Shown here one piece after another: positions 6,969 to 49,668 of a stretch of 56,718 nt of DNA (position 1 is its first letter; each line of letters starts with the position of its first letter). The translations under genes were made by a program, and so were the position numbers. This DNA comes from a virus, in the IMG/VR virus record IMGVR_UViG_3300050343_000137, positions 1 to 56,718 of that record. One strand, written 5' to 3'. A model generated the notes under the pieces. The model was not told where the DNA came from. It did not search any database and saw nothing but the letters and a program-made list of their open reading frames with translations.

Positions 6969-7649
6969 ATGAGCTTCAATACAAGCGGTACTATATCCGA
7001 AGTATTAATAGGTACAGGTGTTCTCTATTACGCAGATAGGACTACAAGTTCTTTAGTATTCCCAGCCGATAACAGCGGCGCATGGGAAAACCCTACAACA
7101 CTATCAGTTCCATTTTCAGAAGTTGGTTATTCTGAAGATGGCTGGACTTTAGAAGTTGATAAAACTTTTGAAGATGTTATGGTTGCCGAAGAAGTAGACC
7201 CTATTAAGACTCTTAAGTCAGCACAAGAAGTAAGACTAACTGGTGAACTATCACAAGCTGGTATTGACAAACTTCAAATCGCAATGGGTGGCGGTGTTAA
7301 AGCAGAAGATACAATTACTGCTACAACAACACAAACCACTGGTAGCGATTTTGATACAGGATATGATTCATATATCCCACCTTTGTCAGATACTTTCACA
7401 GAATATGCGATGGTATTACACACAGATGGTCCAGCTGGTGCAGACAGACAGTTCCACATTCCTAGAGCAGTGAATGTTGGTTCTTTCGCAATGAGTCACC
7501 AAAAGGCTCCAGCAAAAGTTAGTTTGGCAACAGAATTTAAACTTCTTGTTCCAGATTCAACTTTAAATGTTGGTTCTACAAGTGGTGCATACTACTTGTT
7601 CAGAGTCATAGATAACACTAACGATACTGACGAGTTAGATATTAACTAA
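6969..7649 (+). CDS. Major tail (tube) protein
   Basis: 226 residues, builds the tail tube. Family-like features: an early beta-rich region (SEVLIGTGVLYYAD), a central acidic segment (FEDVMVAEEVDPIKTL...VRLTGELSQAG) as in lambda gpV-like tube proteins, and a C-terminal beta half ending in YYLFRVIDNTND. Position directly before the frameshifting chaperone pair and the tape measure supports it. Strong ribosome site (TAGGAG). Confidence 0.82.
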   Translation: MSFNTSGTISEVLIGTGVLYYADRTTSSLVFPADNSGAWENPTTLSVPFSEVGYSEDGWTLEVDKTFEDVMVAEEVDPIKTLKSAQEVRLTGELSQAGIDKLQIAMGGGVKAEDTITATTTQTTGSDFDTGYDSYIPPLSDTFTEYAMVLHTDGPAGADRQFHIPRAVNVGSFAMSHQKAPAKVSLATEFKLLVPDSTLNVGSTSGAYYLFRVIDNTNDTDELDIN

Positions 7650-46382: not shown

Positions 46383-46705
46383 AAATTTTAAGAGTAGTAG
46401 ATGGGGACACAGTAGATGTTAGAATTGATTTGGGTTTTAATGTGTGGCACAAATGTCGTGTTCGACTCATGGGCATTAATGCTCCAGAATCACGAACAAG
46501 AGATTTGGAAGAGAAAGCAAGAGGGCTGGCTGCAAAAGATTGGCTTATAAAAGAGTTAGAAAGTTCAGAAGTCCAAATGCAATCACACGGAACTGGAAAA
46601 TACGGTAGAGTTCTAGGAACTCTAATAATAGATGATGTAGATATCAACCAAAAGATGGTAGATAAAGGACACGCTATTTGGTATGACGGCGGTTCACGCT
46701 CATAA
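46364..46705 (+). CDS. Staphylococcal-type nuclease (SNase family)
   Basis: 113 residues. RVVDGDTVDVRIDLGF (metal-binding Asp), CRVRLMGINAPESR (Arg, then metal-coordinating/general-base Glu), and HGTGKYGRVLGTLII (second Arg) are the SNase signature; QKMVDKGHAIWYDG is the closing segment. No signal peptide, so intracellular. A Ca2+-dependent sugar-nonspecific nuclease that could degrade host nucleic acid or tidy packaging intermediates. Confidence 0.85.
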   Translation: MYYYKIEILRVVDGDTVDVRIDLGFNVWHKCRVRLMGINAPESRTRDLEEKARGLAAKDWLIKELESSEVQMQSHGTGKYGRVLGTLIIDDVDINQKMVDKGHAIWYDGGSRS

Positions 46706-46709
46706 AACT

Positions 46710-46950
46710 GGGGTGGTCTCACATTGAGAAGCTGCTTCAGTCTTTCGACACTCTAATCTTTTCGATTAGAAAGCTGATTATTTTTGCCCACTCATACCGT
46801 TATGAACGGGAATACCTACCGAATTTAATTAGCAGGTTTACTATCATCCCTTGCTCCCTAGCGATAGTCATGCTAGTTCACTTACTTTTTTAAAGCACAG
46901 TAGAGCTACTGAAAATAATCTTGGCTATCTCCGAAAGGAGGGACCACCCC
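46710..46950 (+). ncRNA. Candidate large structured RNA (241 nt)
   Basis: Not coding. P1: GGGGTGGTC (46710-46718) pairs with GACCACCCC (46942-46950). P2: GATTATTTT (46776-46784) pairs with AAAATAATC (46912-46920), extended across a two-base bulge by AGCT (46772-46775) with GGCT (46923-46926). Nested hairpins: CTAATC/GATTAG (46753-46769), CCGTT/AACGG (46797-46809), ACTATC/GATAGT (46840-46868), CTAGC/GCTAG (46858-46876), CAGTAG/CTACTG (46898-46911) and CTCC-GAAA-GGAG (46929-46940). Plus strand is favoured: U-G pairs at the ends of P1 and P2 and a GNRA loop. ACTATC/GATAGT and CTAGC/GCTAG interleave. No family recognised; the adjoining genes are convergent. Confidence 0.6.
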
Positions 46951-46956
46951 TAATAA

Positions 46957-47358
46957 TTAAAAGAGGTTATCTTCTTTCTCTTGAAGCATAATTTGTGCCA
47001 TAGTTATCCTTCTACTACCAAGTTTAGCAATTTCTTTTACCATCTCTATAAAAGCATTAAGCTGACCTGTTCTAAATTTATATAAAGGGTGCTTAGTTTT
47101 ACCTATATCTATACCACTTTCAAACTTCTTACAATACATTTCTATTTCTTTTGCTCTTGCATAGTATGCAACTGCTATTTCGTATAGAGAAGACACACCA
47201 GCTTCTACTGGTGATTTTGTTCTACCAAATAAAGTGTCTGTATATCCTTCTATTTCGTTTTCAAAGTTACGAATAGTTTCCATTGCATTGCCATGATGCT
47301 CAATGTCTTCAAACTTAACATGTAGCAAAGAGTTTTTTTTAGCTAAATTTTCACCCAT
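46957..47358 (-). CDS. Unknown helical protein (weak resemblance to small terminase, P27-like)
   Basis: 133 residues, helical: SLYEIAVAYYARAKEIEMYC, HPLYKFRTGQLNAFIEMVKE, IAKLGSRRITMAQIML. The order 'helix - HP - helix - LGxxR' is reminiscent of P27-type small terminase subunits, but there are no diagnostic residues. ATG 47358 lies in the end of the preceding zinc-finger gene (overlap 8 bases). The last gene of a five-gene minus-strand operon. Confidence 0.5.
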   Translation of the reverse strand: MGENLAKKNSLLHVKFEDIEHHGNAMETIRNFENEIEGYTDTLFGRTKSPVEAGVSSLYEIAVAYYARAKEIEMYCKKFESGIDIGKTKHPLYKFRTGQLNAFIEMVKEIAKLGSRRITMAQIMLQEKEDNLF

Positions 47359-47500
47359 TTACTTCTGCTTCTTTCATCATATGAGCATTTCCACAATCGT
47401 AACATATTTTATGAAGCTCATTTAAAACTCCAAGCCATATTCCGTCTGTCCCGGAATGTACTATATTTTCTTTAGTACCGCAACGTCCGCATTCATTCAT
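47351..47500 (-). CDS. 49-residue zinc-finger mini-protein
   Basis: MNECGRCGTKENIVHSGTDG and HKICYDCGNAHMMK: two CxxC knuckles 29 residues apart, a classic short zinc ribbon. Ribosome site AGGAGA six bases upstream (47507-47512 on this strand). Overlaps neighbours on both sides by 8 bases. Confidence 0.6.
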   Translation of the reverse strand: MNECGRCGTKENIVHSGTDGIWLGVLNELHKICYDCGNAHMMKEAEVNG

Positions 47501-47639
47501 TGTTCTCCTTTTCTTGTAGCAAATCTATAAAATAATTTATATATTGCCTTTTATTTTCTTTCGGTAACCAACACAAAATTATTGCAGCAGCATATTCTAA
47601 ATTTCTTTTAGCTTTTTTTTCTGCCGCTTTAGAGTTCAT
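47493..47639 (-). CDS. 48-residue hypothetical protein
   Basis: MNSKAAEKKAKRNLEYAAAI, then ILCWLPKENKRQYINYF and IDLLQEKENNE: a basic N-terminus and two helices. Overlaps the upstream gene's end (11 bases) and the downstream gene's start, so coupled. Unknown. Confidence 0.5.
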   Translation of the reverse strand: MNSKAAEKKAKRNLEYAAAIILCWLPKENKRQYINYFIDLLQEKENNE

Positions 47640-47868
47640 CTTGTTTCCAATCATTATAAAAAGTTTCTAATCTAGTAAGCATAAGTTTATGACTTTGTAT
47701 ATTGTACTCAATCATCTTAAGCGTATTTCTATATATTTCTTTTAAGTCTTTACTTTCTGGTTCACCCATAAAAGCTAACTCTTTTTTAAACTCTTTAGCT
47801 TCAAGAATTGTATTTTGACAATCTTCTAAAGCATCAAGTACATCGAATAGTGAATCATATTTTTCCAT
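47629..47868 (-). CDS. 79-residue helical protein
   Basis: Start at ATG 47868 chosen because GGAAGGAAA precedes it; the frame is open further upstream, but that part overlaps the structured leader. MEKYDSLFDVLDALEDCQNT and the rest form long helices (EIYRNTLKMIEYNIQSHKLM). First gene of the short operon behind the RNA at 47882-47994. Unknown function. Confidence 0.55.
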   Translation of the reverse strand: MEKYDSLFDVLDALEDCQNTILEAKEFKKELAFMGEPESKDLKEIYRNTLKMIEYNIQSHKLMLTRLETFYNDWKQDEL

Positions 47869-47881
47869 AATTTCCTTCCGT

Positions 47882-47994
47882 AAAAAATGTAAAGGGTGTT
47901 CAACGATAGGCAAGAACAGCAACCTAATTATAAAAATTAGAGTGGTTACTAAAAACCTAGTATGGAGCTCTCTTCCATCTCTAGTCCCTTTACA
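47882..47994 (-). ncRNA. Candidate structured leader or small RNA
   Basis: On the minus strand TGTAAAGGG (47994-47986) pairs with CCCTTTACA (47896-47888), immediately followed by T6 (47887-47882). Inside are four hairpins: CTAG-AG-ATGGA/TCCAT-A-CTAG, GGTT/AACC, CTAATT/AATTAG and TGTTC/GAACA. This is a multi-branch junction with a U-tail at its 3' end, 19 bases before the helical-protein ATG at 47868. Either a riboswitch-like attenuator or an sRNA. No known class recognised. Confidence 0.5.
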
Positions 47995-48102
47995 AAACTA
48001 ATTTTAGCAGACATTTAACTGTATGCTTCACAAATGGAGTTTGAGACAGGTGTTGCATCAACAAAGGGGCTTGTTACAGCTAGTAGCTTTACTACCATTA
48101 GC

Positions 48103-49668
48103 TTATACATCCACACTGTCTCTACCCTCCAATTCGTAATCTTTAATAACTAAACCGTTTTCTATTTTACCAACAGTCGATGGTTTTCTGTACATACTTT
48201 TAACGTACTTACCTAAAAACAATCCATTACCGTTTATACCATAATGAGCCCAATGACCCCTTCTAGTGTGTTGTGCTAATTCACTGGTTCTAAGCGGTCT
48301 TTCTGTACCGTCAGATTCTACAACATAAAGAGATGGCTTAACTTTTAAAGTTTTAATTGTTACAGTAGGTTCATCACTTTCTGTGTTTAAACCCATCTTG
48401 GAACGCTTAATTCTTTTACGCTCTTGCCTAGGTACTGATATATTTTCTCTGACAAAGATACCATCTTTTTCACCATTCAACCATTGTGTGACTCTAAACA
48501 ATCCACCTATGACTGCGTGTGTAATAATTGAGTTAGACAAATAGAAGCGAACAGACTCTGCTTTAGCATTCTGGTGTTGACTTCTAAGCCTTTTAGTAAA
48601 CTCATCATCTGAATCTTTTTGACTGTCTAAAATACCTCCATACAAATCAAGAACACCGTGTGCGTGAGTAGAGCTAGTACTTTGTTGGTTCAAATAATTA
48701 TAAGCGTCACTGTACATACTTCTTTCTTTATCAGACATTCTGTTGTCATGAAACGAAGTAAAAGTATAAGGTCTTCCATAATTGTCTAAGTTGATTTGAA
48801 TATTATTAATCCAAGTAATTTTACCATTAGCACTACAAGTAGCATCGTCGCAACAAAATCTTCTTCCATATATGTCAACAAATTGAGTATATTGTGGACG
48901 AACATCTTCTGCTATATATGGCATAGATGGCATTTCTAAAACCCAATCTCTGTAATTTTTATGTATAGAAATTTCACCTTTTTCTACAAACTTTCCCATA
49001 TTCGGGTGGTCTAAAAATTCTCTAGGTGTTAAGTGTGCTAAGTCTTCATTAAGAGCAAGAGGGTCTTTAACAACCCATTCTCTATGTTGTACATTCTCTA
49101 TTGGTTTGTCTAAGTCAAACTGACGGACAACAACAGATATGTCTTTAAATCTAGGTATATCAACTTCTGAAAGTGATTCATCATCAATAAAATAATTAAC
49201 TAGCTCATCTATTTTGTTGTTTGAATCTAGCATATAAAAGTTATCTTCATATGGCTGTGTCAAAAATACATTGTCTTCATTAAATAAATTAGACAAACTT
49301 TCTAAAGCATCAAAACATAAATCATTTTTTGTATTGTTATCTTTTACTTTAGTAATTAATGAGTCAATCTCCATTTCAAATACTTCACTAGCATTAAACA
49401 TATATGGAACTTTTCCAATTTCTACATTTTTATTTACTTCTTCTGATATGTAATGAATAGACCTTTCAACATTAGTACAAATGTTAGAGACTTTTTGTAA
49501 AAACTCTTTTGGGTTTACATTTTCTTCCTCAAGAGTTTTTAAGAACTCTGGGTTTGATTTCATTTCCTGTAAGTAATCTACTAGATTGTCGTGTATTGCA
49601 GGAAAGTAAAGATTAGGGAACGAAGTGTTAGCTAAGTCTCTGCCTAAAATTTCTGATAGTTGTAACAT
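48103..49668 (-). CDS. Large early protein of unknown function
   Basis: 521 residues from ATG 49668, chosen because AAGGAGA lies eight bases upstream; the ATG at 49698 belongs to the promoter's -10 (TATAATGG). Contains CCDDATCSANG, THAHGVLDLYGG, and a C-terminal TRRGHWAHYGINGNG... KYVKSMYRKPSTVG motif similar in shape to the RGHWR...RG endings seen in several phage early proteins. No enzymatic motifs recognised. Expressed from a strong promoter, so important early in infection. Confidence 0.6.
   Translation of the reverse strand: MLQLSEILGRDLANTSFPNLYFPAIHDNLVDYLQEMKSNPEFLKTLEEENVNPKEFLQKVSNICTNVERSIHYISEEVNKNVEIGKVPYMFNASEVFEMEIDSLITKVKDNNTKNDLCFDALESLSNLFNEDNVFLTQPYEDNFYMLDSNNKIDELVNYFIDDESLSEVDIPRFKDISVVVRQFDLDKPIENVQHREWVVKDPLALNEDLAHLTPREFLDHPNMGKFVEKGEISIHKNYRDWVLEMPSMPYIAEDVRPQYTQFVDIYGRRFCCDDATCSANGKITWINNIQINLDNYGRPYTFTSFHDNRMSDKERSMYSDAYNYLNQQSTSSTHAHGVLDLYGGILDSQKDSDDEFTKRLRSQHQNAKAESVRFYLSNSIITHAVIGGLFRVTQWLNGEKDGIFVRENISVPRQERKRIKRSKMGLNTESDEPTVTIKTLKVKPSLYVVESDGTERPLRTSELAQHTRRGHWAHYGINGNGLFLGKYVKSMYRKPSTVGKIENGLVIKDYELEGRDSVDV

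Follow-up and report, generated by a model that had tools for sequence, protein, structure and literature searches.

The window analysed here is the whole 56,718-nt stretch of the virus record IMGVR_UViG_3300050343_000137, and it carries on its minus strand a structured RNA, reading from 47994 to 47882, in front of a minus-strand operon of small genes. The first downstream gene (47629..47868, minus strand) encodes a 79-aa protein without a PHROG match and is preceded by the ribosome-binding site AAGGA at 47877-47873, and another operon gene (46957..47358, minus strand) encodes a 133-aa protein homologous to hypothetical phage proteins. An extended -10 promoter, TG-C-TAAAAT, is predicted on the same strand at 48001..48009, and the predicted transcript start lies at about 47994. 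No tRNA or tmRNA was detected at the element. A short minus-strand frame (48100-48017; MVVKLLAVTSPFVDATPVSNSICEAYS) looked like the N-terminus of ThyX; a thyX exon or intron at this position was rejected, as Pfam PF02511 had no match in the record.

A second conserved RNA of ~240 nt follows the operon (46700-46960, minus strand), running from GGGGTGGTC to GACCACCCC and then into a T-rich stretch. It lies within ~1 kb and was found in relatives too, in line with the earlier note's remark that two RNA candidates stand near each other. Its motifs CTCCTTTCG, GCAAGGG and GACTGARGCAG are retained, with few exceptions, in seven aligned sequences; it had no Rfam match, and the three-way-junction family model described below does not match it either.

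Architecture and statistical support

The family fold is a three-way junction composed, in order, of P1, AAUAGAG, P2 (capped by a GAGAR loop), AC, a variable P3, ~10 nt ending in URAACA, and P1'. Amid freely varying helices, the core of GG-AAUAGAG, GAGAR loop, AC and URAACA-CC is near-invariant. In the window, the 9-bp closing helix predicted by the earlier note was recovered upon re-reading the minus strand: the P1 5' strand TGTAAAGGG (47994-47986) pairs with the 3' strand CCCTTTACA (47896-47888), both strands being supported by covariation and the former also by the covariance model. The near-invariant J1/2 reads ACUAGAG (47979..47985; family AAUAGAG, from alignment A3) and is followed by the covarying P2 hairpin ATGGA/TCCAT (47962..47978) with its loop GAGAG (47972-47968) and by J2/3, an AC that is invariant in A3 (47960..47961). 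The P3 arm (47907..47959), assigned from the family-wide helix score and the window fold, combines TAGG/CCTA, AGTAACC/GGTTGCT and TAATT/AATTA, and its helix TAGGT/GCCTA begins directly 3' of AC, as in the family. J3/1 is UCGUUGAACA (47897..47906; family NNNUURAACA, with AACA invariant in A3). As had also been claimed, a T6 tract (47887-47882) directly follows the closing helix, and 19 bases separate that helix from the ATG at 47868. The window core thus comprises GGACUAGAG, GAGAG, AC and UUGAACACC, with a single deviation from the family core, A to C, which is common to L086 and AP013544.

The interior of the element differs from the four simple hairpins originally proposed, since what relatives keep is P2 together with a single composite P3 arm, which TAGG/CCTA closes. 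The fourth of these hairpins, GTTC...GAAC, is formable in 11 of 60 members, and its GAACA is a conserved unpaired junction; the GGTT/AACC hairpin clashes with P3.

Covariation was evaluated in alignment A3, which holds 58 sequences. Across P1 and P2, 86% of the cells are standard pairs and 16 of the 17 pairs have changed on both sides; in P2, all six pairs covary and 95% of the cells are paired. The covariation score of 0.859 compares with 0.221 for shuffled alignments and 0.10-0.18 for slid partners, and none of 500 shuffles reached it. In nearly all members, a P3 helix starts directly after AC and ends a few nucleotides before AACA, with a mean score of 11.3 against 7.0 after shuffling. The window matches the covariance model R1 with 66.8 bits (E 8.5e-14), being itself one of the 58 training sequences. 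Single-sequence folding gave modest support: the minimum free energy was -31.6 kcal/mol (z -2.44), and 4 of 200 shuffles folded equally well. This z-score is the one observation that would suit a chance or coding-related structure, a reading of practically negligible probability that is ruled out by the covariation, which beats both the shuffled and the slid controls, and by the model score of the window; the element is, moreover, conserved across unrelated genomes. The RNA of the window is certain because of this homology, that is, the covariation score and the model match, and not because of single-sequence folding, and by sequence comparison the interval is a member of one real structured RNA family. 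The consensus-type fold of the window reaches -27.2 kcal/mol, or -29.0 kcal/mol with the helices constrained, and is less stable than the minimum free energy fold; the core is therefore presumably kept in shape by tertiary contacts or a partner.

Relatives and extent of the family

The 531-aa protein encoded upstream, used as bait in a pattern scan and in tblastn, yielded no relatives, although L027 has a homologue. With the 133-aa operon protein, nine loci were found, followed by two further close ones (L047 and L048). The same RNA precedes the operon in seven of the nine, and two (L031 and L032) gave no match to the element; the RNA is thus not shared by the whole window clade. Hypothetical homologues of the 133-aa protein, 39-45% identical, occur in Gordonia phages (GMA6) and Brevibacterium phage Cantare, where Holliday-junction resolvase genes lie near them. 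Across relatives, the closing helix changes in sequence and is re-paired, as TGTAAAGGG/CCCTTTACA, TGTAGAGAG/CTCTCTACA or ATACAAC..TAGG/CCTA..GTTGTAT. The loss of pairing in relatives that the earlier note had named as its refutation was looked for and the opposite was found: in the covariation analysis that it had called for, P1 and P2 covary, and the proposal of a structured RNA ahead of the minus-strand operon is supported.

A first pattern of shared motifs matched 19 viral contigs, nearly all of them true members. The second pattern, built from GGAATAGAG, GAGA and AC plus one G, and including neither helix pairing nor P3 nor AACACC, gave at least 120 matches, versus 9 when, as a control, the letters of the core were put in another order. 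TAGAG and AC were parts of the search patterns, and the columns of GGAATAGAG, GAGA, AC and the one G are conserved partly by construction because the second pattern contained them; AACA was absent from it. The full covariance model matches 98 of the 100 loci L101-L200 and all 15 of L201-L215, some of which had also trained it. In total, the family counts ~140 IMG/VR loci, some of which share a contig, plus a single GenBank record: AP013544.1, the metagenomic fosmid of an uncultured Autographiviridae phage, has the RNA just before the RNA polymerase gene.

Beyond these, BLAST of elements against phage records returned AP013544 as the sole match, three other elements having no real match; matches in Vibrio were 27 nt long and were not counted as real. 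Apart from this one metagenomic fosmid, no phage record with the element was found. A 15-base seed scan gave 25 matches, and those searched with the covariance model (L002-L010) lacked the element. Two phyla (398 and 296 genomes) yielded no prophage copies under a strict pre-filter run without a positive control, and the genome-contig pattern matches L097-L100 were rejected upon failing the covariance model. In one phage group, the RNA is directly preceded by a further conserved, hairpin-like segment whose loop contains CCTTTC (L079, L081, L083, L101, L105, L107, L116, L119, L134, L172 and L183); CCTCCTTTC, which is similar to the 16S anti-Shine-Dalgarno sequence, is present in the window's second RNA too.

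Expression signals and gene neighbourhood

L027 and L028 have a TGNTAWRAT-type element a few nucleotides ahead of P1, and one can be read by eye in L033 and L047 as well; across the wider family, an extended -10 or sigma-70 promoter at P1 was looked for and not seen. In the window clade, the extended -10 puts the predicted RNA start at P1, so that the RNA would be transcribed from a promoter of its own and would form the structured 5' leader of the small-gene operon. A run of at least four T directly follows P1 in 33% of distinct members, compared with 3-7% in control windows that start 20-40 nt further on and 14% at 45. The U6 of the window has a similar counterpart in L027, and within the window clade U-tracts follow P1 in only two of five subgroups; in the close relatives L028/L030, L033-L035 and L047, an ordinary ribosome-binding site stands there instead. 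The distance from the CC of P1 to the downstream start codon is 4-29 nt in many cases. The idea that the RNA replaces a Shine-Dalgarno sequence was discarded, as most phages without such a sequence at this gene have few of them overall.

An attenuator or an intrinsic end is therefore only putative, as U-tracts occur in roughly one third of the family and in two of the clade's five subgroups. An sRNA would call for a conserved promoter and terminator of its own; the promoter is predicted in the window clade only, and the U-tract is not conserved. The earlier note's suggestion of a riboswitch-type attenuator or of an sRNA that ends intrinsically is likewise only putative. More broadly, a trans-acting small RNA or decoy, binding a conserved host protein or RNA irrespective of incidental neighbours, would explain the predicted promoter and U6 of the window, the unrelated and sometimes convergent neighbours, and the two or three copies in some records, but appears rather improbable given that no promoter is conserved across the family, that only about a third of members have a U-tract, and that no antisense-like single-stranded seed is conserved beyond the junction and P2 loop. 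A ligand-free mRNA element, in which P1 and the folded junction act as an intrinsic terminator or mRNA-end protector, is quite unlikely: a pure stabiliser needs no near-invariant junction core and most members have no U-tract, even though U-runs follow P1 in a third, the RNA often lies directly 3' of a stop codon, and P1 would sequester the 5' end in the window clade.

Genes downstream of the RNA encode RNA polymerase (L113), DNA polymerase (L125), small (L102) and large (L108, L124, L154) terminase subunits, exonuclease (L079, L115), a RuvC-like resolvase (L160) and a PAPS reductase-like protein (L167), and upstream neighbours include replication initiators, exonuclease VIII and an anti-restriction protein. 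Genes of one pathway were not found next to the RNA among the family loci, and this diversity is too great for an ordinary single-pathway riboswitch. An automatic census placed 43 of 60 elements between two co-directional genes and nine before a convergent gene, part of the latter calls being doubtful (e.g. L139); it is indecisive between mechanisms because most phage neighbours are co-directional anyway. At L121, L141, L146, L156 and L204, according to this census with its partly uncertain calls, a convergent gene comes next and regulation has no obvious target. Five loci carry two adjacent copies (L114, L121, L143, L155 and L086, the first L086 copy being taken from sequence reading and a record-wide match). 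In L202, a tRNA gene (7070-7143) stands where the RNA copy (6992-7073) ends.

Such diverse neighbours and tandem copies would be natural if polycistronic phage mRNAs were cut between genes at this RNA, either by self-cleavage as a ribozyme or by an enzyme recognising it as a processing site. The intercistronic position in most contexts, the copy ending at a tRNA gene and the small invariant core in a junction also fit this explanation, which we nonetheless regard as somewhat unlikely, as no Rfam ribozyme family matches and U-tract enrichment is not predicted by it.

Proposed function and comparison with known RNAs

We tentatively favour a cis-acting receptor leader with P1 as its output helix, which fits the window clade best. 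Here, the RNA would most likely act in cis on phage mRNA, the core serving as a receptor for a putative small molecule or a widely conserved protein, and receptor folding would close P1 in a switch-like manner. Since P1 adjoins a U-tract or a ribosome-binding site or start codon, its closing would end transcription in the U-tract members or hinder initiation in the others; in the window, the promoter beside P1 would presumably be used. The covariation of P1 and P2, the model matches in loci found without P1 pairing, P3 or AACACC, the U-tract enrichment after P1, the extended -10 before P1 in the window clade and the proximity to start codons argue for this receptor leader, whereas the unrelated downstream genes, the convergent next gene at five loci, the non-conserved U-tract and the absence of a family-wide promoter at P1 argue against it. 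With less confidence still, the family could constitute a new functional RNA class, either a self-cleaving ribozyme of a new type or the receptor of a general infected-cell signal, spread among many unrelated uncultured phages. A compact RNA with such strong conservation, frequent in uncultured phages yet missing from Rfam, would be a new viral RNA class. Its near-invariant core allows direct tests of function, be it self-cleavage or the binding of a ligand or a protein, and the RNA could reveal a step of control common to phages that differ in nearly every surrounding gene.

Rfam 15 gave no match in the whole window at the gathering threshold, only chance-level matches elsewhere in the stretch for 46500-48300 at E up to 10, and no match at the element in eight relatives at E up to 1; the Rfam search proposed by the earlier note thus left the element without a match. 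No description of the family was found in the literature, in a search that left subscription papers and preprints mostly outside its scope. The manA and wcaG RNA motifs of marine phages resemble the family as conserved RNAs in marine phage DNA, but are listed in Rfam, whereas the window element has no match there at E up to 10. The HK022 put RNAs, antiterminators in early phage leaders, are likewise structured RNAs of phage leader transcripts, and are set apart by their description as two stem-loops, as opposed to a mostly intercistronic three-way junction. Hammerhead and twister self-cleaving ribozymes occur in phage-like contexts with a small conserved core and promiscuous gene neighbours. 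To our knowledge, the core AAUAGAG / AC / URAACA is not that of hammerhead, twister or pistol. The pistol self-cleaving ribozyme is likewise described from phage-like contexts, with a small conserved core and promiscuous gene contexts (PMC4604425). The family shares the small conserved core and promiscuous contexts of all three ribozymes, and is Rfam-negative. Purine-class riboswitches are compact three-way junctions; their core is invariant, and their P1, which is free in sequence, lies near expression signals. Although our family has other conserved nucleotides, no Rfam match and downstream genes without a common pathway, it resembles such three-way-junction riboswitches in its compact junction, its invariant core and its free-sequence P1 beside expression signals.
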